Shown here: one piece after another, positions 3,777-29,017 of the stretch | Numbering within the stretch: position 1 is the first letter of the stretch | Layout of the letters: every line of letters starts with the position of its first letter | Source: Variovorax sp. OAS795 | GTDB lineage: Bacteria; Pseudomonadota; Gammaproteobacteria; Burkholderiales; Burkholderiaceae_C | Reading direction: 5' to 3' | DNA length: 64,000 bases | Assembly (NCBI RefSeq): GCF_040546685.1 | Contig: NZ_JBEPOH010000002.1 | Span: 372,001-436,000 of the forward strand | Position numbers and translations under genes: made by a program | The notes under the pieces: generated by a model | Seen by the model: the letters and a program-made list of their open reading frames with translations, nothing else | What the model was told of the DNA's origin: nothing | Database searches by the model: none

Positions 3777-5564
3777 ATGGCTGCCTCCATCCAACTGCTC
3801 GGCGTGCCGCAGGTCGTCCTGCAGGACGGCACGGTGGTGGTGCTACGGGGCCACAAGGCCTGGGGCCTGCTGGCTTACCTGGTGGCCCAGCAGGGCGCTG
3901 TGAGTCGGCAGCACCTCGGCCGCCTGCTGTTCGAGGACGCGGAAGACCCGCTTGCAGCGCTGCGCTGGAATCTCACCGAGCTTCGGCGGGCACTGGGTCC
4001 CGCCAGCCTGAGGGGCGAAGCGATCGCTCTGGATCGCAGCTCGGTGGCCTCCATCGACGTGGATGTGCTTCGGCGCGGCGGATCGTCCGAAGGCGTGCGA
4101 CTGCCTGGCATCGGCCGGGAATTGCTCGAGGGGATGAACTTCTCCGGCAGCCCTTCTTTCGATGGGTGGCTTCAAGCCGAACGCCGCCGCATGCATGCCA
4201 CCTCGCAGGCCGTGCTGCACGAGGCCGCACTGGCCCGGTTGGCGGCCGGCGCAGGTGACGAAGCCGTCGACCTGGCTGGCCGTTTGTTGGTACTCGACCC
4301 GCTGGATGAAAACTCCCAGGTCCTTCTGGTCCGCTGCCTGGCGAATGCCGGCGATGGCGTAGGCGCAGCCCGGCAAGCCGCTGCATGCAGAGAACTCTTC
4401 CAGCGTGAACTGGGTGTGCTGCCAGGCACCGCGTTGGGCGATGCGCTGCGAACCTCCACGTCGACGGCCGTGTCGCGCCCGGCGACCGGGCGAGCGGGCG
4501 CACTCGCGCAGATCGAGGCTGGCGAAGCTGCGATCGGCGCCGGTGTGCTGGAGGCCGGCCTGCAGTGTCTGCGCAGGGCCATCGTCGATGCCGATGCCAC
4601 CGGCGATCCGGCGCTGCGCTCGCGTGCGCGCATCGCGCTGGGAGGGGCGCTGGTCCATGCGGCGCGCGGCCGCGACGCCGAAGGGGCTGCGGCGCTGCAC
4701 CAGGCACTCGCGATCGGACGCGAGGCAGCACCACAACACGTGGCGGCGGCGTGCCGGGAGCTGGGCTACGTCGAGTTTTTGCTGGGTCGCTATGAACGCG
4801 CCCTGACCTGGGTGGAACGGGCCGAACCCTTGGCCCAGGACGTAGCCGAGCGGGCACGGGTGGCGACGCTGCACGGTTCCATCTTGAGCGACATGGCGGA
4901 CTACGAGGCCGCACAGGTGCAACTGCGGCAGGCGCAGGCCTGGGCCGAGGAAGCCTCCGACACCAGGCAAGGCATCTACGCCGCGTCCATGGCGGGCCGG
5001 GTGCTGGTCCTGACGAGACACCTGGATGAAGCCACCTTGCTGCTGGATCGCTGTATCGGTGAGGCACGGCGCATGTGGACCGCGTTTCTGCCGTGGCCGC
5101 AGTCTTTCCGTGCCGAAGTGGAGCTGCTGCGCGGGCACATCGACGAAGCGGCCGATCGTTTCGAACACGCGTTTGCGCTGGGTTGCCAACTGGCCGACCC
5201 CTGCTGGGAAGGCATCGCCGGCCGCGGGCTCGGCCTGGTGGCTGCTGCGCGCGGCGATGCCGACGGGGCAATGGCGATCCTGCTGGACACACTTCAGCGC
5301 TGTGGCCGGCTGCCCGATGCCTATGTCTGGGGCGGCGCCTATGCGCTGGATGCTGCGTGCACGGTGGCCATCGAGCGGGGCGATGACCGGGCAGCTGCGT
5401 GGGCCGATCGGTTGCTGGCGATTTCCGCCGGCGCGGGAATGCGTGAGCTGGTCGTTCGCGCCCATGGGCACCGGGCGCGACTGGGGGAGGCAGGTGCGGC
5501 CGAGGCCTCGAGACTTCTTGCCGACGGGATCTGCAACCCGGCGCTGGATGTGCTGCTCGCGTGA
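3777..5564 (+). CDS. Large transcriptional regulator with BTAD and TPR repeats
   Basis: A 595-residue protein. Residues about 1-95 form an OmpR/SARP-like winged helix (IQLLGVPQVVL, LAYLVAQQGAVSRQHLGRLLF, ALRWNLTELRRALG). Residues about 95-245 match the bacterial transcriptional activation domain (helical, ENSQVLLVRCLANAGD, RELGVLPG). The remainder is Ala-rich helical TPR-like repeats. It lacks the NB-ARC ATPase of longer AfsR-type proteins. The ATG at 3777 is the first start giving a complete DNA-binding domain. The partner DUF4242 gene lies immediately upstream and may be its target or effector partner, but nothing in the sequence names the regulated pathway. Confidence 0.75.
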   Translation: MAASIQLLGVPQVVLQDGTVVVLRGHKAWGLLAYLVAQQGAVSRQHLGRLLFEDAEDPLAALRWNLTELRRALGPASLRGEAIALDRSSVASIDVDVLRRGGSSEGVRLPGIGRELLEGMNFSGSPSFDGWLQAERRRMHATSQAVLHEAALARLAAGAGDEAVDLAGRLLVLDPLDENSQVLLVRCLANAGDGVGAARQAAACRELFQRELGVLPGTALGDALRTSTSTAVSRPATGRAGALAQIEAGEAAIGAGVLEAGLQCLRRAIVDADATGDPALRSRARIALGGALVHAARGRDAEGAAALHQALAIGREAAPQHVAAACRELGYVEFLLGRYERALTWVERAEPLAQDVAERARVATLHGSILSDMADYEAAQVQLRQAQAWAEEASDTRQGIYAASMAGRVLVLTRHLDEATLLLDRCIGEARRMWTAFLPWPQSFRAEVELLRGHIDEAADRFEHAFALGCQLADPCWEGIAGRGLGLVAAARGDADGAMAILLDTLQRCGRLPDAYVWGGAYALDAACTVAIERGDDRAAAWADRLLAISAGAGMRELVVRAHGHRARLGEAGAAEASRLLADGICNPALDVLLA

Positions 5565-5589
5565 TGAGCCAGTCGCTGACGTCGGGGCC

Positions 5590-7734
5590 TCAGCCCAACA
5601 CGATGGTCTGCCGCAGCAACCCAGATTGCTCCGCACTCGGCCCCACGAGGATCTCGACTTCGCCCGCCTCGAACAGGGGCTGCAGGTCCGGCCCGAGATA
5701 GCGCAGCTCGGCCGCGGGCAGCGCCAGGTTCACCGAGCCGGCTTCGCCAGGCCTCAATCGCAGCTTCGCGTAGCCCTTGAGTTCGAGCAGCGGCCGGGTG
5801 ACGCGGCTCACCTTGCCGCGAATGAACAGGAAGACGGTTTCCTCGGCCTCGCGCGCGCCGTCGTTGCGCAGCCTCACGCTGATCTTCAGGGTCTCCTGCT
5901 CGCTCACGCGCCGCGGCTCGACATGAAGCTCGTCGTAGTTGAACCGGCCGTAGGTCAGGCCGTGGCCGAAGGCATAGAGCGGCGTGTTCTCGACGTCCTG
6001 GTATTTGCTCGTGAAGTAATCGGCCGGGTTGATCGGCCGGCCTGTGGGGCGCTGGCCGAAGTAGATGGGCACCTGTCCGACGACGCGCGGCCAGCTCATC
6101 GGCGTGCGGCCGGTGGGAGATGCCTGGCCGGTGACCACGTCGGCAATCGCATGGCCGGCTTCGGCGCCGAGGAACCACGCGGCCAGCAGCGCGTCGGCAT
6201 GTTCGGCCAGCCAGGGAACGACGAGCGGGCGGCCCGAGAACAGGATGGCGACAACGGGGATGCCGAGCGCGTGTGCGCGCGCGATCACTGCTTCGGCCAG
6301 CGCCTGTTGCCGGCCCGGGAGGGCGGGCGTGGCGCGGCTCGCCGCCTCGCCACTCATCCTGGCACTTTCGCCCAGGCACAGCAGCACGGCCTCGGCACCC
6401 TCGCACATCGCTATGGCGGCTTCGATGCCGCTGTCGTCGCCGCCTTCGATGGCGACCCCGGGCGCATGGCGGATGTCCGCCTGCGGCAGCGCGGCGCGCA
6501 AGCCGGCAAGCACGCTGACGGCGGGCTCGTGTTCGCCGGCACCCCACCACGGGCCTTTCATCTCGGTGCTTGCGTCGGCCAGCGGCCCGATGACGCACAG
6601 TGCCTTCGGCGCCGCAGGCAAGGGGAGGGTGTCACGCTCGTTCTTCAGCAAGACGATGGCCTTGCGCGCGGCCTCGCGCGACAGCGCGTGCCGCTCGGCG
6701 ACGAGCGCCGCCGGCTCCGGTGTCGCGCCGCGGCGGTAGGGGTCGTCGAACAGGCCGAGCTGCTCCTTCAGCCGCAGCACGCGGCGCACGCTGGCATCGA
6801 TCTCCTCGATCGTCACCCGTCCCTGCTCGAGCGCGACCGGCAGGCCCTTGCGGTACGCGTCGGCCATCATGTCGATGTCGACACCGGCCTTCAAGGCCAG
6901 TACCGCGGCATCGGCGAGATCGGCCGCGACGCCATGCTTGATCAGTTCCGCGATTGCGTTGTAGTCGCTCACGATGACACCGTCCCAGCCCATCTCGCCG
7001 CGCAGCCAGTCGCGCAGCAAGGGGATGTGCGCCGTCATCGGCACGCCGTTCAGGTCGGTGAAGGCGGGCATCAGCGTCGCGACGCCGGCGCGGACCGCGG
7101 CTTCGAAGCCCGGCAGGTGCACCTCGCGCAAGGTGCGCTCGGAGATGTCCACCGCGGCGTACTCCCGCCCCGCATTGACCGCGCCGTACGCGACGAAATG
7201 CTTCGCACAGGCGGCCAGCGCGTCGGCCGACGACAGGTCGGCCCCCTGGAATCCGCGCACCTTGGCCTCCGCGATGCGTGCGTTGAGCCAGGGGTCTTCG
7301 CCGGGCCCTTCGGCGGTGCGCCCCCAGCGGGGATCGCGCGACACATCGAGCATCGGCGCAAAGGTCATCGCCAGGCCCTCGGCGGCGCCTTCGCGCGCGG
7401 CCTCCCGTGCCGTGCGCTCCCACACGTCCGGGTCGAAGGTGCCGGCCTCCGCGAGCGGAATCGGAAAGAGCGTGCGATGGCCATGGATGATGTCCAGGCC
7501 GATCAGGAGCGGAATGCCCAGCCTCGACTTCTCGACGGCCAGCCGCTGCATCTCGTGCGTGGGGCCGGCGCCCACCATGTTCAGCAGGTTGCCGACGGTG
7601 CCGTCGATGATCGACTGCGTGGAGTCTCCCGCGAGCACCGGTCCGGTGACCGTGTAGCTGGAGGCAGTCATCGTGAGTTGACCCAGCTTTTCAGCCAGCG
7701 TCATCCGGGCCATGAGTGTGTCGATACGGCTCAT
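5590..7734 (-). CDS. Glycoside hydrolase family 3 beta-glucosidase
   Basis: A 714-residue GH3 enzyme of the BglX type. The (beta/alpha)8 domain begins MTLAEKLGQLTM and has KHF (178-180) for substrate binding and VIVSDY with nucleophile Asp257. The second alpha/beta domain follows (KAIVLLKNERDTLPL), then a C-terminal fibronectin III-like domain (GRFNYDELHVE). No signal peptide is visible, so it is probably cytoplasmic, unlike periplasmic BglX. The start at 7734 gives the normal family N-terminus; its ribosome site is weak. It is divergent from the glucanase operon at 7866, suggesting that it trims the short beta-glucans made there. Linkage preference is not determinable. Confidence 0.9.
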   Translation of the reverse strand: MSRIDTLMARMTLAEKLGQLTMTASSYTVTGPVLAGDSTQSIIDGTVGNLLNMVGAGPTHEMQRLAVEKSRLGIPLLIGLDIIHGHRTLFPIPLAEAGTFDPDVWERTAREAAREGAAEGLAMTFAPMLDVSRDPRWGRTAEGPGEDPWLNARIAEAKVRGFQGADLSSADALAACAKHFVAYGAVNAGREYAAVDISERTLREVHLPGFEAAVRAGVATLMPAFTDLNGVPMTAHIPLLRDWLRGEMGWDGVIVSDYNAIAELIKHGVAADLADAAVLALKAGVDIDMMADAYRKGLPVALEQGRVTIEEIDASVRRVLRLKEQLGLFDDPYRRGATPEPAALVAERHALSREAARKAIVLLKNERDTLPLPAAPKALCVIGPLADASTEMKGPWWGAGEHEPAVSVLAGLRAALPQADIRHAPGVAIEGGDDSGIEAAIAMCEGAEAVLLCLGESARMSGEAASRATPALPGRQQALAEAVIARAHALGIPVVAILFSGRPLVVPWLAEHADALLAAWFLGAEAGHAIADVVTGQASPTGRTPMSWPRVVGQVPIYFGQRPTGRPINPADYFTSKYQDVENTPLYAFGHGLTYGRFNYDELHVEPRRVSEQETLKISVRLRNDGAREAEETVFLFIRGKVSRVTRPLLELKGYAKLRLRPGEAGSVNLALPAAELRYLGPDLQPLFEAGEVEILVGPSAEQSGLLRQTIVLG

Positions 7735-17090: not shown

Positions 17091-17762
17091 TCAGTTGGCG
17101 CAGCGCGCCTCGAGCGCGTCGATGAACGCGCGGTCCCAGCGGCCTTCCTTCATGGCGCGGATGGTTTCCGCTTCCGTCGCGAGGTGCGCGCGCGCCTTCT
17201 CGATCAGCAGCCCGGCTTCTTCCGGCGCAAAAGCCATGAGCCCGTCCTGGTCGCCGACCACGATGTCGCCGGGGTTGACGACCATCCCGCCCACGGACAC
17301 CGGCACGTTGATCTCGCCGGGCCCGTCCTTGTAGGGGCCGCGATGGGTCACGCCGCGCGCATAGACCGGAAACTCGCGCGCCCGGACCTCGGCCACGTCG
17401 CGGATCGCGCCGTCGATCACCACGCCCAGCACGCCGATGTGCGCGGCGTAGAACGAGAGGATGCCGCCGACCACCGCGTTGTTGAGGTCGCCGCCGGCAT
17501 CGATCACCAGCACGTCGCCGGGACGGCAGAACTCGAGCGCGCGCAGGTACGTGAGGTTGTCGCCGCCGCGCGAGCGCGCCGTCACGGCCGTGCCGGCCAT
17601 CGTCCTCGCCACCGGACGGTGGTAGGGATGCAGGCCGGTGCTGCCGATGTTGCGGTGCATGTTGTCGCTCAGCGCGGCGACAGGCATCTCGCGCAGTGCG
17701 GCAAGGATTTCGGGGGCCACCGGAGCGGCGGAGGCGTTCTTGCGGATGGCTTTGTAGGGCAT
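17091..17762 (-). CDS. RraA-family aldolase/decarboxylase (4-hydroxy-4-methyl-2-oxoglutarate aldolase-like)
   Basis: A 223-residue RraA-fold protein. It has GDVLVIDAGGD, then VVIDGAIRD, containing the Arg-Asp pair that in HMG/CHA aldolases binds substrate and metal, and GDIVVGDQDGLMAFAP. These residues argue for a metal-dependent aldolase or oxo-acid decarboxylase rather than the RNase E inhibitor RraA. Known relatives cleave 4-hydroxy-4-methyl-2-oxoglutarate or 4-carboxy-4-hydroxy-2-oxoadipate to pyruvate plus a second oxo-acid. It follows the aminotransferase gene by 26 bases on the same strand and shares the LysR-type promoter at 19031-19095. An aminotransferase feeding a 2-oxo acid to this aldolase is a natural reading. 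Confidence 0.8.
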   Translation of the reverse strand: MPYKAIRKNASAAPVAPEILAALREMPVAALSDNMHRNIGSTGLHPYHRPVARTMAGTAVTARSRGGDNLTYLRALEFCRPGDVLVIDAGGDLNNAVVGGILSFYAAHIGVLGVVIDGAIRDVAEVRAREFPVYARGVTHRGPYKDGPGEINVPVSVGGMVVNPGDIVVGDQDGLMAFAPEEAGLLIEKARAHLATEAETIRAMKEGRWDRAFIDALEARCAN

Positions 17763-17788: not shown

Positions 17789-18997
17789 TCAGCGCAGGGC
17801 GGCCACTGCTTGCGCGATGCGTGCGCAGCCTTCCTCGAGCGTCTCGATGGCGGTGGCGATGGAAAGGCGGAAGTAGGGCGACAGGCCATAGGCGGTGCCC
17901 GCGACCACGGCCACGCCCTTGCTCTCGAGCAGGTACATCACCACGTCGCCGTCTTCTTCCAGCCGCTTGCCTTGCGGCGTGGTCTTGCCGACCAGGCCGC
18001 CGCAATGGATGTAGAGGTAGAAGGCGCCGGGCGGCGGGGTGCAGCGCAGGCCGGGGATCTCGTTGACGAGCGCCAGGGTGCGGTCGCGCCGCTTCCTGTA
18101 CACCGCCACGCTCTCCGCCACGAAGCCCTGGTCGCCGTTCAAGGCGGCGGCCGCGGCCGCCTGGCTCACCGAGCAGCAGTTGCCGGTGGACTGCGACAGC
18201 AGCGTGTCCATTGCCTTGACCAGGTCGGCCGGACCGGCCGCATAGCCGATGCGCCAGCCCGTCATCGCGTAGGTTTTCGAGACGCCGTTGACCACCAGCG
18301 TGCGCTCGCGCAGCGCGGGCGCTACCGCGAGCAGGTGCGGCGTCGCCCCGCCGTCGAAGCGGATGTGTTCGTAGATGTCGTCGGTCATCACCATGACGTG
18401 CGGATGCCGCTGCAGCACCTCGGCCAGCGCACGGTATTCATCGGCGGTGTAGCTGGCGCCGGTCGGATTGCTGGGCGAGTTGATCAGCAGCCAGCGCGTG
18501 CGCGGCGTGATCGCGGCCTCCAGCTGCGCGGGCGCCAGCTTGAAGCCGTTGGTTTCGGGGCAGGCGACGGTGACCGGCGTGCCTTCGCAGGCCAGCACCA
18601 TGTCGGGGTACGACACCCAGTAGGGCGCGGGAATGATCACCTCGTCGCCCGGCTCCAGCGTGACCGCAAAGGCGTTGTAGATCGCGCTCTTGGCGCCGCT
18701 CGTGGCGATGATTTCGTTCAATGCATAGCGCAGGCCGTTTTCGCGCTCCAGCTTGGCGACGATGGCCTGCCGCAGCTCCACCGTGCCGGCCATCAGCGTG
18801 TAGCGGGTCGCGCCTTGCTCGATGGCGGCAGCGGCGGCCTGGCGGATGTGGGGCGGGGTGTCGAAGTCGGGCTCGCCCACCACCAGGTTCACGATCGACT
18901 TGCCCTGGCGCCGCAGCTCGTTGGCGCGGTCGGCGGCCGATGTGCTGGGCGAGGGCTTGATGCGCCGCACGCGGGCGGCAATGCGGGAGGGCGTCAC
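17789..18997 (-). CDS. Class I pyridoxal-phosphate aminotransferase (aspartate aminotransferase-like)
   Basis: A 402-residue fold-type I aminotransferase. It shows VGEPDFDTP (40-48), the SGAKSAIYNAF cofactor-phosphate region (100-110), NSPSNPTG (173-180), DDIYE (206-210), NGVSKTYAMTGWRIG with Schiff-base Lys241, and a C-terminal FRLSIA with the carboxylate-binding Arg. GTG at 18997 follows AGGAAGA and starts the protein at TPSRIAARVRRIKPS, the normal family start; a longer reading has no ribosome site. It heads a two-gene unit with the RraA-type aldolase and has the LysR-type promoter 34 bases upstream. Amino-donor and acceptor specificity are not determinable. Confidence 0.9.
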   Translation of the reverse strand: MTPSRIAARVRRIKPSPSTSAADRANELRRQGKSIVNLVVGEPDFDTPPHIRQAAAAAIEQGATRYTLMAGTVELRQAIVAKLERENGLRYALNEIIATSGAKSAIYNAFAVTLEPGDEVIIPAPYWVSYPDMVLACEGTPVTVACPETNGFKLAPAQLEAAITPRTRWLLINSPSNPTGASYTADEYRALAEVLQRHPHVMVMTDDIYEHIRFDGGATPHLLAVAPALRERTLVVNGVSKTYAMTGWRIGYAAGPADLVKAMDTLLSQSTGNCCSVSQAAAAAALNGDQGFVAESVAVYRKRRDRTLALVNEIPGLRCTPPPGAFYLYIHCGGLVGKTTPQGKRLEEDGDVVMYLLESKGVAVVAGTAYGLSPYFRLSIATAIETLEEGCARIAQAVAALR

Positions 18998-19030: not shown

Positions 19031-19095
19031 ACGGTACGCACATCGATCGCGCGAGGCCAAGACGAGATTGCACTGGTTCTATAGGCGCAGCTTAT
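19031..19095 (-). promoter_or_regulatory. LysR-type promoter copy 1, driving aminotransferase-aldolase
   Basis: Read on the minus strand: ATAAG-CTGCG-CCTAT (19095-19081), an ATA-N9-TAT box of the kind bound by Nac-like LysR proteins; then CGTCTTGG ending at 19057; then 20 bases; then TACCGT (19036-19031) as a -10. The same three elements occur at identical distances at 20108-20172 and 24944-25008. The box centre would lie near -64 from the predicted start, the classical LysR recognition position. It also lies 65 bases before the LysR gene, consistent with autoregulation. Confidence 0.7.
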
Positions 19096-19159
19096 GGTGA
19101 GCCCGGATGGCCGCTGCGCGGGGGCGGTGCTAGGCTCGGGTTTTGCTTGGGGACAAGGC

Positions 19160-20098
19160 GTGAACCTGCGACGCCTCAAATATTTCGTGAAGATCGTGGA
19201 CATCGGCAGCCTGACGCAGGCGGCCGAGGTTCTTTTCATCGCCCAGCCCGCGCTGAGCCAGCAGCTGGCCACGCTCGAAGGCGAGGTGCGCCAGCAGCTG
19301 CTCGTGCGCACCAAGCGCGGGGTCACGCCCACGGAGGCCGGCAAGGTGCTGTACCGGCATGCGCAGATCATCCTGCGCCAGTGCGAGCAGGCGCGCGTGG
19401 ACATGGAAGCGGCCGGCGAGGGACTCTCGGGCCAGGTGTCGGTGGGTCTTGCGCCCGGCACGGCGGCCTCCGCGCTTTCATTGCCGCTCTTGCGCACCGT
19501 GCGCGCACGCCACCCCGGCATCCTGCTCTACCTGAACGAGAACTACGGCACCACGCTGAGCGAGCTCATCATGAACGGCCGCATGGACCTGGCCGTGCTC
19601 TATGGGGACAAGGCGATCCATGGCTTGAGCTTTCAGCCGCTGCTCAAGGAGCCGCTGTTCCTGGTCGGGCCGGCCGCGATGCCGGCGCCGGCGCAGCCGG
19701 TGAAGCTGGTCGATCTGCGCGACATCGAACTCTTCCTGCCGCGCCCCTACAACGTGGTGCGCAAGCTGGTCGACGCGGCTTTCGTGCGTGCGGGCATGGT
19801 GCCGCGCGTGGTGGCCGAGATCGAATCCGCCTTCACGCTCACGGCGGCCATTGCCGACGGGCTGGGCGCGACCATCCTGCCGGCCTCGATGGCGCGCGAG
19901 GTGGTGGCTTCTTGCGGCGCCTGGCAGTTCCAGATCGTCGAGCCGGTCATCGAGGCGCCGCTGGCGCTGTGCCAGTCGGACCACCTGCCGCTTCCCGAAC
20001 CGGCGCAGGCGGTGAAGAGCATCCTGCTCGAGCTGGTGGTCGACCTCGCGGGCAACTTCGCGGCCACGCCCGAACCCGGGCTGGCCGCGCTGGCCTGA
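19160..20098 (+). CDS. LysR family regulator, Nac-like
   Basis: A 312-residue LysR protein. The N-terminus NLRRLKYFVKIVDIGSLTQA and helix-turn-helix AAEVLFIAQPALSQQLATLE are of the Nac/Cbl-adjacent branch; an effector-binding domain follows. GTG at 19160 has GGGGACAAGG upstream and gives the usual LysR start; the ATG at 19094 would add 22 untypical residues. It lies between the divergent aminotransferase-aldolase pair and the downstream carboxylase/oxoprolinase operon. ATA-N9-TAT boxes occur in front of both and also in front of the SDR/importer operon. Its effector could be a pathway intermediate or nitrogen status; that is inference. Confidence 0.88.
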   Translation: MNLRRLKYFVKIVDIGSLTQAAEVLFIAQPALSQQLATLEGEVRQQLLVRTKRGVTPTEAGKVLYRHAQIILRQCEQARVDMEAAGEGLSGQVSVGLAPGTAASALSLPLLRTVRARHPGILLYLNENYGTTLSELIMNGRMDLAVLYGDKAIHGLSFQPLLKEPLFLVGPAAMPAPAQPVKLVDLRDIELFLPRPYNVVRKLVDAAFVRAGMVPRVVAEIESAFTLTAAIADGLGATILPASMAREVVASCGAWQFQIVEPVIEAPLALCQSDHLPLPEPAQAVKSILLELVVDLAGNFAATPEPGLAALA

Positions 20099-20107
20099 CG
20101 TGCCGTC

Positions 20108-20172
20108 ATAAGCCGCCCTTATCGCGGCACAGCCAATCCGTCTTGGGCTTTGTGCCCGCGGCCCGTTACCTT
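20108..20172 (+). promoter_or_regulatory. LysR-type promoter copy 2, driving the carboxylase/oxoprolinase operon
   Basis: ATAAG-CCGCC-CTTAT (20108-20122), then CACAGCCAATCCGTCTTGG (20128-20146), then 20 bases, then TACCTT (20167-20172). The box is the exact reverse complement of that in copy 3, and the 19-base block is identical in both. The predicted transcript start near 20179 lies after the ATG at 20175, which supports the internal ATG at 20247 as the start of the biotin-carrier gene. Confidence 0.75.
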
Positions 20173-20246
20173 TCATGCCTGCCGTCACGCGTTCGCTGGA
20201 TGCGTCGGCCACCAAGGATGTCCTGTCGCCAGAGGCAGGCCCCGAC

Positions 20247-20681
20247 ATGAAGCAGGAACAGATCAAGACGCTCATCGATGCACTCGCCGCTTCGGACCTG
20301 GCGGAGCTGGAGTACACGGAAGACGGCAGCACGCTCAGGCTGGTGAAGCAGTCGGCGCTGAAGGCCGTGCCCATGGCACGGCCCCCCGCCGGCGCACGCC
20401 ATGCAACCGGCGCGGCTTCCGCGGAAACGGCACTGCCGGAGGCCGCCGCGGACGAATGCCGCGCACCGCTCCATGGCGTGGTGCACCTGCAGCCCGCGCC
20501 CGGCGAGCCGCCCTTCGTGCACCCGGGACAGGCCGTCGAGGCCGGCCAGATGCTCTGCGTGATCGAGGCCATGAAGATGTTCAACGAAGTCCGCGCCGAG
20601 GTCGCCGCCACCGTGCAGTCCGTGCTCGTGAGCTCGGGCCAGGAAGTGGAAGCAGGCGAGCCCCTGTTCCGTTTCGGTTGA
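20247..20681 (+). CDS. accB: Biotin carboxyl carrier protein (AccB-like)
   Basis: A 144-residue BCCP. The N-terminal part ([23 protein letters not shown]) matches the AccB start, followed by an Ala/Pro linker and a biotinyl domain with [10 protein letters not shown], the Lys to be biotinylated being residue 110. The ATG at 20247 fits both the AccB N-terminus and the predicted promoter. It is the first gene of an operon with biotin carboxylase and 5-oxoprolinase-like subunits, so it is more likely a pathway-specific paralogue than the housekeeping acetyl-CoA carboxylase subunit. Such accBC pairs often accompany pxp genes; their exact role there is unclear. Confidence 0.85.
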
Positions 20682-20694
20682 GGAAGACCACGCC

Positions 20695-22043
<1,349 letters not shown>

Positions 22044-22047
<4 letters not shown>

Positions 22048-22715
22048 CGACCCGGCAACGACCTTCGACCAGCCTGCTGGGCACCACCGCGCTGCTGTTC
22101 GAGCCCCCCGGCGAGATGAACCTCGGCACGCAGCAGCGCATCTGGGCGCTGGCGCACGAAGCAGGGGCCTGGCCGGAAATCCGCGAAGCCGTGCCGGGCA
22201 TGAACAACCTGATGCTGACCTTTCTTCGCCCGCCGCGCGGCCTCGAAGCGCTCGAAGCCCTCGAGGCTCGCCTGGCCGATGCGTGGGATGCGGCGGTCGC
22301 CCGGCCGCGCGAAGGCCGCGTGGTCGAGCTGCCTGTGGTCTACGGCGGCGCCGGCGGCCCGCACCTGTCCGACGTGATGGCGCACACCGGCCTCAGCATC
22401 GAGCGCATCGTCGAGCTGCACAGCGCGCCGCTCTACCCGGTGTACGCGCTCGGCAGCCATCCGGGCTACTGCTACCTGGGCGGCATGGACGCGCGCATCG
22501 CGACACCGCGCCGCAAGGTGCCGGTGTTGAGCATTCCGGGCGGCGCGGTCTCGATCGGCGGCGCGCAGACCGGCGTGTCGGCGTCGCCGGGGCCGAGCGG
22601 CTGGAACACCATCGGCAGCACCTCGATGTGCTTCTTCGATCCCGCGCAGGACCCGCCGGCGGCGCTGCAGCCGGGCGACATGATCCGTTTCCGCGTGGAG
22701 GGCATCGTCCGATGA
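22044..22715 (+). CDS. pxpB: 5-oxoprolinase subunit B-like (PxpB/KipI)
   Basis: A 223-residue protein of the allophanate hydrolase subunit 1 (KipI/PxpB) family. It has the conserved [17 protein letters not shown] segment, [18 protein letters not shown] and the cyclophilin-like core [15 protein letters not shown], ending GDMIRFR. With PxpC and PxpA it forms the ATP-dependent prokaryotic 5-oxoprolinase, which opens 5-oxoproline to glutamate. Its start overlaps the biotin carboxylase stop and its stop overlaps pxpC, so translation is coupled. The co-operon carboxylase genes leave room for a related lactam or urea-type substrate. Confidence 0.88.
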
Positions 22716-23701
22716 TCGAAGTGCTTTCATCGGCCGCGCTCGCCACCGTGCAGGACCTGGGGCGCACCGGCAGCCTGCGCTGGGGCGTCGGCACCTCGGG
22801 CGCCATGGACAACCTGGCGCTCGCGGCCGGCAACCTGCTGCTGGGCAATGCGCTCGGCGCTGCCGCCATCGAGATCCCGGTGTTCCCGTTCAAGGTGCGC
22901 TTTGGCGAGGACTGCGCATTTGCGCTGACCGGTGCCGACTGCGCGGCCCGGCTCGACGGCCAGCCCCTGCTGCCGTGGTGGGTGCACCAGGCGCGCGCCG
23001 GGCAGGTGCTGGCGTTGGGCCTGCCGCAAGGCGGCGCGCAGCGCGGCACCCGCGCCATGCTGTGCGTGGCCGGCGGGGTCGACGTGCCCGAAGTGCTGGG
23101 CTCGCGCAGCACGCAGCTGCGCGGTGCCTTCGGCGGCCACGAAGGGCGTTCGCTGCGGCGAGGCGACATGCTGCGCGCGGCCGGTGCGGGCGCGGCATGC
23201 AAGACCGGCTTCGGACTGGTGCCGCCCGCGCTCGCAATGCCGCTCGAACGCGACGGCCTGCCGGCCGTGCGCGTCTTGCCCGCGGCCGAATACGCGGGCT
23301 TCGATCCCGCGTCGCGTAGCGCCTTCTGGGCCGGCGAATGGAAGATCACTTCGCAGAGCGACCGCTACGGCTACCGCCTCGAAGGCGAGGCGCTGCGCCC
23401 CATCGCGCCGATGGAGTTGCGTTCGCACGGCATCGTGCCCGGTGTGATCCAGGTGCCGCACAGCGGGCAGCCGATCATCCAGATGCGGGACGCCCAGCCC
23501 TCCGGCGGCTACCCCAAGTTCGGCACGGTGATCGAGGCCGACATGTGGCGCCTCGGGCAGGCGCCGATCGGCAGCCGCGTGCGCTTCATCGAAGCCGATT
23601 GGGACGAGGCGGTGGCTGCCCTCGACGAAGTGCGCGCCTGGCTCGACAAGGTGGCGCGCATGGTCGAACTGCACCGCGCTGCGCCCGGGGCAAGGCGCTG
23701 A
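22712..23701 (+). CDS. pxpC: 5-oxoprolinase subunit C-like (PxpC/KipA)
   Basis: A 329-residue protein of the allophanate hydrolase subunit 2 (KipA/PxpC) family. It begins [20 protein letters not shown], has the GVGTSGAMDNLALAAGNLLLG signature in the first 45 residues, CVAGGVDVPEVLGSRST in the middle, and the late segment HGIVPGVIQVPHSGQPII followed by GGYPKFGTV. Length and motifs are complete. ATGA overlap with pxpB supports a stoichiometric PxpB-PxpC complex. It probably performs the ATP-dependent part of lactam activation together with PxpA. Confidence 0.9.
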   Translation: MIEVLSSAALATVQDLGRTGSLRWGVGTSGAMDNLALAAGNLLLGNALGAAAIEIPVFPFKVRFGEDCAFALTGADCAARLDGQPLLPWWVHQARAGQVLALGLPQGGAQRGTRAMLCVAGGVDVPEVLGSRSTQLRGAFGGHEGRSLRRGDMLRAAGAGAACKTGFGLVPPALAMPLERDGLPAVRVLPAAEYAGFDPASRSAFWAGEWKITSQSDRYGYRLEGEALRPIAPMELRSHGIVPGVIQVPHSGQPIIQMRDAQPSGGYPKFGTVIEADMWRLGQAPIGSRVRFIEADWDEAVAALDEVRAWLDKVARMVELHRAAPGARR

Positions 23702-23702
23702 C

Positions 23703-24116
23703 ATGCGGGACGTCGCGCTGCACGCCAGCCTGTTCGCCGCGTGGCTGGCCGACACGGACATCGGCCTGTTCGAACTGCGCACGCCCAACGGCACGCTGCG
23801 CCTGGGACGGCAGGGCGACGACATCGTCGAACTGCCCGTCGAACCGTCCGACGCGCAGGGCGCGGCCGGGGCGGCGCTTGTCACGGTCAAGGCCCCCACG
23901 GTCGGCGTTTTCCTGCACGGCCATCCGCTCGGCAACGCACCGTTGGTCCGCATCGGCGAACGCGTGACGGCCGGCCAGACCGTCGGCCTGATGCAGATCG
24001 GGCCGCTGCTTCTGCCCGTCGCTGCGGCCGAGGCGGGCAAGATTGCCGCCGTGTGCGTCGGCCATGGCCTTTCTGCCGGCTACGGCACGCCGCTGGTCGA
24101 ACTGCAACCCCTCTGA
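23703..24116 (+). CDS. Biotinyl-domain protein lacking the biotin-accepting lysine
   Basis: A 137-residue AccB-like protein. Residues about 60-137 align along the whole biotinyl domain: VKAPTVGVF, IGERVTAGQTVGLM, EAGKIAAV, GTPLVELQ. The EAMKM hairpin is replaced by MQIGPLL, so Pro101 stands where the biotinylated Lys should be. The protein cannot carry biotin in the normal way. It starts one base after the pxpC stop and precedes pxpA, so it belongs to the same operon, which already has a complete BCCP gene. A structural or regulatory subunit of the oxoprolinase/carboxylase complex is plausible. Confidence 0.8.
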   Translation: MRDVALHASLFAAWLADTDIGLFELRTPNGTLRLGRQGDDIVELPVEPSDAQGAAGAALVTVKAPTVGVFLHGHPLGNAPLVRIGERVTAGQTVGLMQIGPLLLPVAAAEAGKIAAVCVGHGLSAGYGTPLVELQPL

Positions 24117-24130
24117 CGCGCAAGGACCCC

Positions 24131-24895
24131 ATGGACATCGACCTGAACGCAGACCTCGGCGAAGGCTTCGGCCCCTGGCGCATGGGCGAGGACGAGGCGC
24201 TGCTGGACATCGTCTCTTCCGCCAACGTGGCCTGCGGCTTCCATGCGGGCGACCCCGTCATCATGGACCGCACCGTGCGCATGGCGCTTGCCCGGGGCGT
24301 CGACGTGGGGGCGCACGTGGGCTTTCCCGACTTGCTCGGGTTCGGCCGCCGGCCGATGCAGATCGAGCCCGAGGAACTCGTGGCCTGCGTGCTCTACCAA
24401 CTGAGCGCGCTGGACGGCATGGCGCGCACGGCCGGCCACCGCATGACGCACATGAGCTTTCACGGCGCGCTCGGCAACATGGCCGCGGCCGATGCCGCGC
24501 TTGCCGAGCCGCTGGTGCGCGCAGTGGCGGATTTCAATCCGGCGCTCATCATCAGCTCTTCCGCCAGCCGTGCCATCGAGGATGCAGCCGCGCGCTCGGG
24601 CCTGCGCGTGCGCACCACCTTCCTGGCCGACCGCGCCTGCGGCGACGACGGCCTGCTGGTGCCGCGCAAGCTGCCCGACGCGGTGATCCACGACCGGGGC
24701 GCGGTGCTGGCGCGCGTGCGCCAGCTGCTGGAGCAGGGCACCGTCACCAGCTACAGCGGCCGGGAGATCCCGATGCGCGCCCATTCCATCCTGCTGCACG
24801 GCGACACGCCCGGCGCGGTGGAACTGGCCCGCGCGGTGCGGGAGGTGGTCGAGCAGGCGGGGCGCGTCGTGCCAATCTCCAGGCAGCGGGACTAG
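24131..24895 (+). CDS. pxpA: 5-oxoprolinase subunit A-like (PxpA, LamB/YcsF family)
   Basis: A 254-residue LamB/YcsF protein: MDIDLNADLGEGFGPW at the start, SSANVACGFHAGDP (29-42), GVDVGAHVGFPDL, HMSFHGALGNMA, the ADRACGDDGLLVPR loop and ILLHGDTPGAV near the end. The conserved Asp and His residues of this polysaccharide-deacetylase-like fold are present. AAGGACCCC precedes the ATG. It is the last gene of the operon. With PxpB and PxpC it completes the three subunits of prokaryotic 5-oxoprolinase, so lactam opening is the best-supported function. Confidence 0.9.
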   Translation: MDIDLNADLGEGFGPWRMGEDEALLDIVSSANVACGFHAGDPVIMDRTVRMALARGVDVGAHVGFPDLLGFGRRPMQIEPEELVACVLYQLSALDGMARTAGHRMTHMSFHGALGNMAAADAALAEPLVRAVADFNPALIISSSASRAIEDAAARSGLRVRTTFLADRACGDDGLLVPRKLPDAVIHDRGAVLARVRQLLEQGTVTSYSGREIPMRAHSILLHGDTPGAVELARAVREVVEQAGRVVPISRQRD

Positions 24896-24943
24896 CCCGG
24901 ACATGGTGCTTACCCTAGGTCGCACGCACGAACACGGGGCAAC

Positions 24944-25008
24944 ATAAGGGCGGCTTATCGCTCCACAGCCAATCCGTCTTGGCGCTGCGAAGAAGCGCTG
25001 GATACAGT
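24944..25008 (+). promoter_or_regulatory. LysR-type promoter copy 3, driving SDR and importer
   Basis: ATAAG-GGCGG-CTTAT (24944-24958), then the same CACAGCCAATCCGTCTTGG block as copy 2 (24964-24982), then 20 bases, then TACAGT (25003-25008), the best -10 of the three. The spacing matches the other two copies base for base, although the intervening sequence differs. It separates the pxp operon from a second co-regulated unit. Confidence 0.75.
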
Positions 25009-25052: not shown

Positions 25053-25805
25053 ATGCCGTTTTCCGACTACAAGACCGCGCTGGTGACGGGAGCCTCCTCG
25101 GGCATCGGCGCCGCCGTCGTCGAGCGCCTCTGCAAGGAAGGTCTCCAGGTCCATGCGCTGGCGCGCAGCGCCGACAAGCTGGCCGAGCTGGCCGCGCGCA
25201 CCGGCTGCATTCCGCACGCCATCGACGTGAGCGACCTCGCAGGCATCACCCGTATCACGCAGGAGGTGGCGTTCGACGTGCTGGTCAACAATGCCGGGGT
25301 CGACCGCCCGGGTTCGATTCTGAAGGCCGACGCCGAGGGCATCGACCTGCTGGTCGACGTGAACCTGCGCGCCGTGCTGCACCTGTGCCGCCTCGTGGTG
25401 CCCGGCATGGCCACGCGCGACCGGGGCCACGTGGTCAACATCAGTTCCATTGCCGCGGCCTACAACTTCGGCGGCAACAGCACCTACCACGCAACCAAGG
25501 CGGCCGTGAGCATGCTGTCGCGCCAGCTGCGCATCGACGTCTTCGGAAGGCGCGTGCGGGTGACCGAGATCTGCCCCGGCCGCGTGGCCACGGACATTTT
25601 TGCGCACGTGCACGGCGATTCCGAGGAAACCTACAAGCGCTTCGTCGAAGGCTACGAGCTGCCGCAGGCGGAGGACATCGCCAACGCCATTGCCTTTGCG
25701 ATTGCGGCGCCCATCGCCGTCAACGTGGGCCACATGGAGATCACGCCCACGCTGCAGGTGCCGGGCGGACTCTCGACCGCGCGGCCGGAAGCGCCGCAGG
25801 CCTGA
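25053..25805 (+). CDS. Short-chain dehydrogenase/reductase (SDR)
   Basis: A 250-residue classical SDR of the YdfG/serine-dehydrogenase-like kind. It has TGASSGIG near the N-terminus, NNAG after a hydrophobic strand, ISSIAAAYNFGGNSTYHATKAA with the Ser-Tyr-Lys triad, and ICPGRVATDIF. The ATG at 25053 (MPFSDY) has an AAGAAG element upstream; an ATG at 25038 is also possible. It is the first gene behind promoter copy 3 and is followed after 49 bases by the importer genes. It probably oxidises or reduces a hydroxy group of the imported compound; the exact substrate is unknown. Confidence 0.87.
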   Translation: MPFSDYKTALVTGASSGIGAAVVERLCKEGLQVHALARSADKLAELAARTGCIPHAIDVSDLAGITRITQEVAFDVLVNNAGVDRPGSILKADAEGIDLLVDVNLRAVLHLCRLVVPGMATRDRGHVVNISSIAAAYNFGGNSTYHATKAAVSMLSRQLRIDVFGRRVRVTEICPGRVATDIFAHVHGDSEETYKRFVEGYELPQAEDIANAIAFAIAAPIAVNVGHMEITPTLQVPGGLSTARPEAPQA

Positions 25806-25854: not shown

Positions 25855-26556
25855 ATGAAGGACTTCGACCTGCTGGCGATCCTGCTCAAGCCCGAATTCA
25901 GCGCGATGCTCTGGCACGGGCTGCAGGAGACGCTGAAGATCGCGGCCGGCTCCTGGCTGCTGGCCATGGCCATGGCGGTCGTGCTGCTGGTCGTGCGCCT
26001 CACGCCGAGCCGGCTGGCCGAACGCCTGGTGGCCGGCTATGTTTCCTATCACCGCAACGTGCCGACGCTGGTGCAGCTCATGCTCTGGTATTTCGGCATC
26101 TTCAGCCTGCTGCCCGATGCGCTGCAGGGCTGGCTCTCGGCGCACAACGCGGAGACGATTCTCTCGATCGTCGCGCTCGGCCTGTGCCAGGCAGCGTATT
26201 TCAGCGAGGACATGCGTTCGGGCCTGCGCTCCATTCCGGCCGGGCAGGCCGAGGCCGCGCGTGCGCTCGGCCATGGCTACATCGGTTCGATGCGCCACGT
26301 GATGCTGCCGCAGGCCATCCGCAACGCGGTGCCGGCGTTGGTGAACCACAGCGTGTCGCTGTTCAAGAACAGCAGCCTGGCCATGGCGATCGGCGTGGCC
26401 GAGCTGACCCATGCGGTGAAGGAAATCGAGAGCCAGAGCTTTCGCACCTTCGAGGCCTACAGCATGGCGACGGTGCTGTACCTGGTGTGCTCGCTGCTGA
26501 TCATGGCGGTGGGCGGCTGGCTGTCGCGTCGCTACCGCGTCGCCGGAGCAAGGTAG
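25855..26556 (+). CDS. Amino-acid ABC transporter permease (HisM/GlnP type), first subunit
   Basis: A 233-residue inner-membrane permease with about five hydrophobic segments. The EAA loop [26 protein letters not shown] (contacting the ATPase) is in the usual place. The segment [17 protein letters not shown] is characteristic of the polar amino-acid uptake family. It precedes the second permease by three bases, so the two likely form a heterodimer. With the ATPase at 27363 and the receptor at 28178 it makes a complete importer under promoter copy 3. Confidence 0.9.
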
Positions 26557-26559
26557 GCC

Positions 26560-27318
26560 ATGTTCAGCGTCTACGAGATCCTTCGCGACAACTGGCTGCT
26601 GCTGCTGGTCGGCCAGTATCCCAGCGGCCCGCTCGGCGGCATCGTCGCCACCTTGATCCTCTCGGTGCTGGGCATCGTGCTGGCGTTTCCGCTCTCGGTG
26701 CTGCTCGCGCTTGCGCGGCTCTCGCCCTGGCGCGTCCTGCGCTGGCCGGCCACGGTGCTGGTCTACGTGGTGCGCGGCGTGCCGCTCCTGATGGTGATCC
26801 TGTGGGTCTATTTCCTGGTGCCCATCCTGATCGGGCGCGAGGTGTCGGGCTTCACCACCATGCTGTGCACGCTGGTGATCTACGAGGGCGCCTACCTGTC
26901 GGAGGTGGTGCGCGCCGGTATCCAGGCCTTGCCCAAGGGCCAGACCGAAGCGGCGCGTGCGCTCGGCCACGGCCACCTGGGCACCATGTGGTTCGTGATC
27001 CTGCCGCAGGCGCTCTACAACATGCTGCCGAGCATGCTGAGCCAGTTCATCTCCACCATCAAGGAGACCACGCTGGGCTATGTCATCAACGTGCAGGAGC
27101 TGACCTTTGCGGCCAACCAGATCAACAACCAGTTGCTGACCAAGCCGTTCCAGGTGTTCTTCATCCTGGCGATGACGTACTACGTCGTCTGCTTCAGCCT
27201 GACCCAGCTCACGCAATGGCTGGAGCGGCGCATCGCCCACAAGCGGCTCGGCGCCGCGTCCGTGAAGGCATCGCAAGACGGTGTCTCGCTGCCGCCTCCG
27301 GTGGCGGCGAACCCGTGA
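26560..27318 (+). CDS. Amino-acid ABC transporter permease (HisQ/GltK type), second subunit
   Basis: A 252-residue permease. It has [18 protein letters not shown] (the family's conserved second-segment motif), the EAA loop [22 protein letters not shown], and a final hydrophobic segment before a polar C-terminal tail of about 35 residues ending PPPVAANP. This tail is longer than usual. It probably pairs with the preceding permease to form the channel of a polar amino-acid importer. The next gene encodes the ATPase after 44 bases. Confidence 0.9.
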
Positions 27319-27362
27319 GGCCGCGTCGACGGCCATCGACAGGAAAACAAGGAGACAGATCC

Positions 27363-28133
27363 ATGAACCCCGTTCCACATTCCGCAGGGGATGACACCAT
27401 GATCCTGTTCTCCAACATCAACAAGTGGTACGGCGACTACCAGGCGCTGGCAGACGTCAATGCCGAGGTCAAGAAGGGCGAAGTGGTGGTGGTCTGCGGG
27501 CCTTCGGGCTCCGGCAAGTCCACTTTGATCCGCACCGTGAACCGGCTGGAGGAGGTGAAGTCGGGGCAGCTTCTTTTCGACGGCCACGACATCCACGCGC
27601 CGATGAGCAGCGCGGCGCTCAACAAGCTGCGCAGCCGCATCGGCTTCGTGTTCCAGAGCTTCAACCTGTTTCCGCACCTGTCGGTGGTGGAGAACATCAT
27701 GCTGTCGCCCATGCGTGTCCTGGGCGTGAAGCGGGCCGAGGCGAAGGAGCGCGCGGCGCAACTGCTGGAGCGCGTCGGCCTGTCGAACAAGGCCGGGGCG
27801 TATCCTGCCCAGCTTTCGGGTGGGCAGCAGCAGCGCGTGGCCATTGCCCGGGCGCTGGCCATGGAGCCGCCCGCGATGCTGTTCGACGAGCCCACCAGCG
27901 CGCTCGATCCCGAGATGGTGGGCGAGGTGCTGTCGGTGATGCGCAGCCTTGCCAACGACGGCATGACCATGATGTGCGTCACGCACGAGATGAACTTCGC
28001 CCGCGACGTGGCCGACCGGGTCTGGTTCATGGACGCGGGCCGCATTCTCGAGAAGGCCGACCCCGAAGCCTTCTTCGGCAGCCCGCAGCATCCGCGTGCG
28101 CAGCGCTTCCTGTCGGATCTGCGCGCGCATTGA
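27363..28133 (+). CDS. Amino-acid ABC transporter ATPase (GlnQ/HisP type)
   Basis: A 256-residue ATPase with Walker [10 protein letters not shown]-loop [11 protein letters not shown], signature LSGGQQQR, Walker [16 protein letters not shown] and switch His in VTHEM. All are intact, in contrast to the ABC protein at 10540. The class-specific segment [15 protein letters not shown] is that of polar amino-acid transporters. AAGGAGA precedes the ATG. It powers the two permeases encoded upstream. Confidence 0.94.
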
Positions 28134-28177
28134 CCGCCTCGTTTTTCTTCTACCCCGTCTCTCCCCAGGAGCTCACC

Positions 28178-29017
28178 ATGACCAGAACCGTCTTTCGCCT
28201 CAGCCTCATCGGAACCTGTCTTTGCGCCGCGTCCTTCCTGTCGCATGCGGATCAATGGAGCGACATCAGCCAGCGCAAGGAACTGCGCTGCGGCACATTC
28301 GCCGATGTGCCGCCCTTCGCGGCCCCCGATCCCAAGACGCGCGAGATGGTGGGCCACGACGTCGACCTGTGCCAGGCGCTCGCCAAGGAATTGGGGCTCG
28401 CGGCCAAGGTCACGCCGCTGTCGGTGGAGGCGCGGGTGCCCGAGGTGAAGCTCGGCCGCGTCGACGTGACCATCGCGAACCTGGCCTACACCAAGAGCCG
28501 CGGCGACCAGATCCAGTTCAGCGACCCGTACTACGTGGCCAAGGAAATGCTCGCGGTGAAGGCCTCCGACCCGGGCACCAGCAAGGCCGACTTCAAGGGC
28601 AAGCGCCTGAGCTCGACCAAGGGCTCGACCTCCGAGCTGTCGATCAAGATGAACGGCTCGGAGCCCGTGACCTTCCAGGACACCGGATCGGCGTTCATGG
28701 CGGTGCAGCAGAACAAGTCGGTCGGCATGGTGGCGAACACGATGACCATCACCAAGCTGGTCAACCAGTCGAAGGCCGAAGGCGTGGCGCTGAAGATGAT
28801 CACGGAACCGATGGTGCTCCAGCCCATTGGCGTGGGCATGAAGAAGGACGAGCCGGTGCTGCTGTCGAAGGTCAATGCCGCGCTCTACGCGCTGGAGAAG
28901 TCGGGCGAGCTCGACAGGATCTGGGCCAAGTGGCTCGGGCCCAATACCGAATACAAGATGGCGCGCCAGGAAAAGGTCACGCCGCTGGCCGACCTGAAGT
29001 TCGAGCTTCTACCCTGA
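28178..29017 (+). CDS. Periplasmic amino-acid-binding protein of the ABC importer
   Basis: A 279-residue family 3 solute-binding protein. A Sec signal (MTRTVFRLSLIGTCLCAASFLSHA) runs to about residue 24. The mature part has LRCGTFADVPPFAAPDP, GHDVDLCQALAKELG, VDVTIANLAYTKSRGDQIQFSDPYY and the C-terminal GELDRIWAKWLGP. It lacks the usual Arg in a TxxR ligand loop in obvious form (AYTKSR is closest). AGGAGCTC precedes the ATG. It is the last gene of the importer operon and should define the compound handled by this locus, probably an amino acid or a derivative. Confidence 0.92.
   Translation: MTRTVFRLSLIGTCLCAASFLSHADQWSDISQRKELRCGTFADVPPFAAPDPKTREMVGHDVDLCQALAKELGLAAKVTPLSVEARVPEVKLGRVDVTIANLAYTKSRGDQIQFSDPYYVAKEMLAVKASDPGTSKADFKGKRLSSTKGSTSELSIKMNGSEPVTFQDTGSAFMAVQQNKSVGMVANTMTITKLVNQSKAEGVALKMITEPMVLQPIGVGMKKDEPVLLSKVNAALYALEKSGELDRIWAKWLGPNTEYKMARQEKVTPLADLKFELLP

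Follow-up and report, generated by a model that had tools for sequence, protein, structure and literature searches.

A NAC-family LysR gene and three conserved two-part promoter sites mark a probable local regulon at a biotin carboxylase and Pxp-type gene cluster of Variovorax

The nitrogen assimilation control protein Nac, a LysR-type regulator of Escherichia coli and Klebsiella, is not known to need a small-molecule co-effector, and its Klebsiella consensus is ATA-N9-TAT. Sites for E. coli Nac have been reported at several unlinked operons (excerpted text of PMC5217608). In Pigmentiphaga kullae the LysR-type protein BhbR1, which controls bromo-hydroxybenzoate catabolism, has an ATA-N9-TAT box near −65 and a putative activation site over the −35, within the footprinted region (available sections of PMC12016517). 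A local regulator of pxp genes has been described in Corynebacterium glutamicum, where PxpR, a GntR-type repressor that binds 5-oxoproline, controls the operon pxpTABC; the 2026 paper that reports it states that, to its authors' knowledge, the regulation of bacterial 5-oxoproline metabolism had not been studied earlier (PMC13274462, in the sections available). Here we describe a NAC-family LysR gene of Variovorax sp. OAS795 and three two-part promoter sites that accompany it, at a cluster for a biotin carboxylase and PxpABC-type proteins. The cluster lies in a stretch of 64,000 nucleotides (positions 372,001 to 436,000 of contig NZ_JBEPOH010000002.1; hereafter the window) on contig 2 of the 6.09-Mb genome.

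The regulator gene, at 19160..20098 on the plus strand, has a GTG start and encodes 312 residues. Its product scores 495.8 bits against the NAC model NF008410 (cut-off 309) and is identical to E. coli Nac at 158 of 293 residues (54%), the DNA-binding region being nearly the same (53 of the first 60), which bears out the Nac-like LysR gene that an earlier note on this DNA had placed here. Unlike enteric Nac, the gene stands inside the cluster that it would serve, with no fourth two-part site in the genome at up to two mismatches, and the box is followed by a conserved second element. The locus resembles the BhbR1 system in having an ATA-N9-TAT box and a second element in what would be corresponding positions; the likeness is one of the sites, and the putative activation site is a different one (PMC12016517, same sections). 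Like PxpR it would be a local regulator of pxp-type genes, but from another protein family.

The three sites share a 65-bp layout, ATA-N9-TAT, 20 nt, TTGG, 20 nt and TACnnT, at 19031-19095 (minus strand), 20108-20172 and 24944-25008, exactly where the earlier note had put them. Read in the direction of transcription, copy 1 is ATAAGCTGCGCCTAT-AGAACCAGTGCAATCTCGTC-TTGG-N20-TACCGT, copy 2 is ATAAGCCGCCCTTAT-CGCGGCACAGCCAATCCGTC-TTGG-N20-TACCTT and copy 3 is ATAAGGGCGGCTTAT-CGCTCCACAGCCAATCCGTC-TTGG-N20-TACAGT. The box of copy 1, ATAAGCTGCGCCTAT (19081..19095, minus strand), lies between the aminotransferase and regulator genes and is kept at the orthologous place in relatives; it is followed by the second element AGAACCAGTGCAATCTCGTCTTGG (19057..19080, minus strand), a probable activation site that extends to the −35, and by the −10-like hexamer TACCGT (19031..19036, minus strand). 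On the plus strand, copy 2 consists of the box ATAAGCCGCCCTTAT (20108..20122), the second element CGCGGCACAGCCAATCCGTCTTGG (20123..20146) and the hexamer TACCTT (20167..20172), and copy 3 of the box ATAAGGGCGGCTTAT (24944..24958), the second element CGCTCCACAGCCAATCCGTCTTGG (24959..24982) and the hexamer TACAGT (25003..25008); in both, the box and the spacing of the second element are conserved in relatives. Copies 2 and 3 also have a 19-base block in common, CACAGCCAATCCGTCTTGG, and boxes that are reverse complements of each other, again as the note had it. Counted from starts predicted through the −10-like hexamers, the box centres fall at about −64; the boxes have the T-N11-A form, which in promoters activated by LysR proteins is centred near −65.

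Each half of the layout is strongly over-represented. ATA-N9-TAT occurs three times in the window against 0.21 expected and TTGG-N20-TACnnT three times against 0.18, at the same three places, and neither half reached three in any of 100 shuffles. When the 100 nt downstream of each box were shuffled base by base 20,000 times, TTGG-N20-TACnnT never fell exactly 20 nt past the box (0, 0 and 0 for the three copies). The fixed spacing noted from the letters stands, with one refinement, that the spacer separating box from TTGG is itself a conserved second element.

Conservation was followed in relatives of the locus, the best 80 of 334 in named genomes by similarity to the window's regulator, many of them close kin. 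Orthologous loci in Comamonadaceae, Burkholderiaceae, Pseudomonas and Marinomonas retain the layout, as do those in records labelled alphaproteobacterial. Counting loci that have the gene concerned, a box followed by TCTT precedes 69 of 75 aminotransferase genes, 74 of 76 carrier genes and 66 of 74 SDR-type genes; where both parts are present, the distance from the end of the box to the first TCTT is 18 nt in 66/69, 74/74 and 66/66 respectively. The scan of related genomes that the earlier note suggested thus found the layout conserved, with a fixed spacing, at orthologous loci. The consensus, CATAAG-N5-CTTATC-N4-CAnAGnCAAnCCGTCTTGG, places the second element between the box and the −35, and its most variable part is the stretch ahead of the −10. 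TAnnnT is found at the exact position in 50/69 aminotransferase, 71/74 carrier, 62/66 SDR and 8/8 RraA promoters. In the form first written down, TACnnT, the hexamer is kept in 36, 50, 33 and 8 of these. Both TTGG and TACnnT are kept less often in relatives than TCTT and TAnnnT.

The gene for the RraA-family protein differs in position between loci. It follows the aminotransferase gene in the same direction at 31 loci and the SDR gene at one, and is absent at more than 48% identity from 36. At 12 loci it was classed as apart from its usual operon, and at 11 of these it has a site of its own; at the twelfth, L043, the copy has a broken reading frame and is the immediate neighbour of the aminotransferase gene. 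Related Paraburkholderia account for several of the 11, which should thus not be counted as so many independent events.

The site also travels with the regulator gene. For this comparison a refined pattern was used, ATAAG-N7-TAT-N5-CA-N5-A-N4-GTCTTGG, with the reversed pattern as control. In the genus sample it was found in 26 of 61 genomes, the same 26 that have the regulator at E-values up to 1e-60 (lists compared by eye), and the control in none. In the family sample of 299 genomes the NAC model at E-values up to 1e-85 picked out six genomes (five above its cut-off); with up to one mismatch allowed, the pattern was found in those six genomes and no others, at 16 places (control, one place). 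One fragmented genome, G104, has its best regulator match and its site on different contigs, the contig with the site starting with a regulator fragment. In nine genomes reached through named loci, all 27 places with up to two mismatches had a nac gene no more than about 25 kb away (control, three places); two of the 27 adjoin other genes, one a second Nac-like gene (Polaromonas), the other about 0.5 kb before an open reading frame (ORF) that by eye is porin-like (Cupriavidus). A class-wide sample of 369 genomes was too sparse to inform: the NAC model at up to 1e-85 matched the genome studied here alone, and the pattern at up to one mismatch matched it and one other place, with one for the control. 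In the same genome up to two mismatches gave the three sites alone, and a wider regulon of two-part sites was rejected on this count; a third mismatch added one place, as did the control. In another genome the regulator gene has one internal stop (G150:C7:24671-25558) and the sites are retained.

As a common two-part sequence stands at three promoters, is kept in relatives and accompanies one Nac-family gene, the regulator very probably switches on the whole of an amide- or lactam-using pathway. What the DNA shows directly is where the sites lie, that relatives keep them and that they accompany the regulator gene; from this we infer binding, activation rather than repression, the start points and a signal. 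It would seem highly likely that the protein encoded at 19160 is a pathway-specific regulator that binds the three sites and activates three promoters of sigma-70 type, those of the divergent aminotransferase operon, the downstream carboxylase/Pxp operon and the SDR-importer operon. The box, ATAAG-N5-CTTAT, with its centre about 64 bp before the expected start, would be the anchoring site, and the CAnAGnCAAnCCGTCTTGG element, ending in the −35 region, the activation site. The −35 (TTGG) is weak, which suggests that the promoters would depend on an activator; the protein may recruit polymerase in response to a signal, which could be a compound of the pathway or no more than the regulator's own abundance. 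Copy 1 may have two roles, since beside serving the aminotransferase promoter its box is placed for possible self-repression of the regulator gene.

Several observations weigh against this account. In 16 aminotransferase promoters, from Pseudomonas loci and all with TTAT in place of TTGG, the −10 lies one base further on. Of the 75 aminotransferase genes, five lack the box and one lacks TCTT, and two of the 76 carrier genes have no site. Eight of the 74 SDR genes are also without one: those of L072, L087 and L089, which are matches of 31-32% identity, those of Caballeronia L095, L096, L097 and L099, where the SDR gene starts within about 60 nt after PxpA, and that of L076. L054 and L061, each beside a Pxp cluster, are without the site, and at L072, L087 and L089 a nac-aminotransferase pair occurs without a box in between. 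The relatives are not independent of each other, and co-occurrence does not tell an effect of the regulator from gain or loss of the entire cluster.

Of the alternatives, the one that fares best is that the regulator represses some of the three promoters until a pathway compound relieves it. The second element does extend into the −35 region and E. coli Nac carries the annotation 'dual regulator', but LysR activation is set out in the available sections of PMC12016517 as a box near −65 followed by a second site across the −35, and the −35 here is poor, so we regard repression as unlikely.

Binding of the three sites by another LysR-type protein of the genome seems less probable still, and has to be considered given that ATA-N9-TAT is general to LysR proteins, for which an extended consensus CTATA-n9-TATAG has been given (PMC5002191, in the portion available). 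The NAC model finds 122 matches in this genome at E-values up to 0.001, although only the product of the 19160 gene is over the cut-off. ATA-N9-TAT itself occurs at 40 places in the 6.09 Mb, three of them inside these 6 kb (reversed-pattern control, 31), and for seven of the 40 boxes the 5′ end of a LysR match is no more than 200 bp away (0.32 expected). The box alone was therefore dropped as a signature of Nac, the sense in which the earlier note had read it; other LysR proteins use it, as BhbR1 illustrates (PMC12016517, in part). What speaks against a different LysR protein is that, in the genus and family samples, the genomes with the two-part site all have this regulator gene, and that one copy occupies the gap separating the regulator gene from the gene divergent to it. 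Three of the other 37 simple boxes in the genome were viewed with their flanks, and by eye none has the second element.

That the likeness of the promoters stems from recent duplication of one of them, with no shared regulator, is suggested by the 19-base block common to copies 2 and 3 but contradicted by the persistence of both at orthologous positions, among bases that have changed, all the way from Variovorax to Pseudomonas, and we give it very little weight. Chance can be dismissed for the refined pattern, since the loose pattern may occur at 11 other places in 299 genomes but three matches of either half arose in none of 100 shuffles and the sites are both conserved and tied to the regulator.

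That loose pattern, the ATA-N9-TAT, TTGG-N20-TACnnT layout which the earlier note had offered as a probe, does find the cluster in relatives. It was found at 20 places in 16 of the 299 genomes (control, none), nine of them at this cluster. The 11 elsewhere have none of the cluster genes within the roughly 3 kb fetched, and the pattern misses G162, a genome with regulator and sites; it was set aside as a probe for the regulon. Six of its matches, L003-L008, have TTGGA and a CTAC/TTAC-type −10 in common, with downstream ORFs that by eye encode a CoA-transferase (L003, L006), an enoyl-CoA hydratase (L005) and a binding protein (L007), and these perhaps belong to another class of LysR promoter. 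A further three, L010, L011 and L014, share ATAGG, GTTAT, CTTTCATTGGC and CCTTACCCT; in L010 and L011 the next ORF is by eye a D-amino-acid dehydrogenase.

Upstream of the regulator gene itself, at 19132..19147 on the plus strand, a possible sigma-54 promoter, AGGCTCGGGTTTTGCT, overlaps a possible extended −10, TGCTAGGCT, and the assignment is ambiguous. The GG-N10-GC match has 10 of 12 consensus letters (11 for E. coli nac) and lies 28 bp before the start codon, where it would leave almost no leader in Variovorax. A match of 10/12 precedes the regulator gene at all 16 Pseudomonas loci with enough sequence, and one of at least nine letters is found upstream in 46 of 79 relatives on the forward strand against 11 of 79 on the reverse. 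The nac gene of enteric bacteria is transcribed from an NtrC-dependent sigma-54 promoter, and for the gene here the evidence is no more than suggestive of sigma-54 control. In Ralstonia an RpoN promoter has been reported before nac (PMC4676750, in the excerpt available). Pseudomonas loci such as L063 and L080 have a second ATA-N9-TAT box in the gap between the aminotransferase and nac genes, just ahead of the sigma-54-like match that precedes nac, in the position that self-repression would need.

The cluster genes were scored with NCBIfam models against the cut-offs of the models. Divergent from the regulator gene, on the minus strand, are an aminotransferase gene (17789..18997; aspartate transaminase model NF004769, 728.7 bits, cut-off 617) and, as second gene of the operon, one for the RraA-family protein (17091..17762; NF004850, 'hypothetical protein', 303.5 bits, cut-off 231); aldolase models score below their cut-offs for the latter, which is aldolase-type by resemblance. 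Downstream on the plus strand is a biotin carboxyl carrier-type protein with an AMKM motif (20247..20681; TIGR00531, 106.8 bits, below the cut-off of 115.2). The preferred start is ATG 20247 and not ATG 20175, which would come ahead of the expected transcript start; in the longer reading the model match sets in at residue 27. Biotin carboxylase (20695..22047; TIGR00514, 660.5 bits, cut-off 626.5), a PxpB-type subunit (22044..22715; TIGR00370, 188.7 bits, cut-off 145.55) and a PxpC/urea-amidolyase-type subunit (22712..23701; TIGR00724, 299.9 bits, cut-off 230.2) follow, then a second carrier-like protein without the AMKM motif (23703..24116) and PxpA of the LamB/YcsF family (24131..24895; NF003814, 333.6 bits, cut-off 226). 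PxpA and PxpB are thus both above their family cut-offs. The second carrier-like protein is poorly conserved, with 37-76% identity among the matches listed.

The cluster is akin to urea carboxylase and 5-oxoprolinase-type enzymes in its biotin carboxylase, carrier, PxpB-, PxpC- and PxpA-type proteins, but here these are separate subunits, with PxpA and two carrier-like proteins. As the 22712..23701 protein reaches only 300 bits of the 500 that the PxpC equivalog model NF045499 demands, the enzyme is not called a 5-oxoprolinase. The third operon, also on the plus strand, starts with an SDR-type oxidoreductase (25053..25805), which many SDR models match, none over its cut-off among the 25 matches listed, and continues with an ABC importer (25855..29017) whose ORFs were named by eye: permeases at 25855-26556 and 26560-27318, an ATPase at 27399-28133 and a binding protein at 28178-29017. 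Of the targets named in the earlier note, the 'aldolase' is matched by an unnamed RraA subfamily model only and the 'oxoprolinase' misses the PxpC equivalog cut-off. Together the genes suggest uptake of a compound, carboxylation by a biotin-dependent enzyme, the opening of an amide or a lactam, and after that transamination and cleavage.

The regulator shares 97-98% identity with its counterparts in the Variovorax paradoxus records L021 and L024, and among eight genomes examined six have one protein over the NAC cut-off and two have two. Two trees set enteric Nac among sequences related to the window protein (support 95/92; 91/94 with four more enteric proteins), and the LysR proteins L102 and L103 of the same genome fall apart from the Nac group, with a warning of long branches. 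A constraint joining the 29 non-enteric rows of at least 60% identity was not rejected (approximately unbiased test, p = 0.18), so enteric Nac may also fall outside them; four of the 29 (L022_4963, L132_3133, L072_5481 and L087_6029) are not regulators of Pxp clusters. Site-bearing, cluster-linked NAC proteins are spread over beta- and gammaproteobacteria with enteric Nac among them on a long branch, which is suggestive of an origin of enteric Nac within the cluster-linked group. More tentatively, and we think it possible but on balance doubtful, the global enteric Nac would descend from a local regulator of the present amide/lactam cluster that later lost the cluster and gained genome-wide targets, the two-part site being the ancestral operator and the single ATA-N9-TAT its remnant.

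Additional Nac-like genes were seen at some loci. In L132 (2028-4160) and in L022 and L037 (near 3900-5850), from Polaromonas and Variovorax, an extra Nac-like gene of 63-65% identity stands beside one of 45-47%, and in L132 a one-mismatch site follows the extra gene. L072 (600-760) and L089 (2250-2400) have adjacent boxes facing apart, with the second element alongside, a few kb from a pair of Nac paralogues; these paired boxes precede an ORF whose product by eye resembles a 2-hydroxyacid dehydrogenase.

A literature search limited to open-licence papers found no report of a Pxp cluster controlled by a LysR or Nac protein. The regulon is apparently real, conserved and local to a NAC-family regulator, with an ordinary LysR mechanism and targets that are new as far as that search shows. 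It would provide a sharply defined, testable regulon for a biotin carboxylase and PxpABC-type cluster and tie the aminotransferase, the RraA-type protein, the SDR and the importer to one pathway. It may also serve as an example in which to ask how a local regulator might turn into a global one such as Nac.

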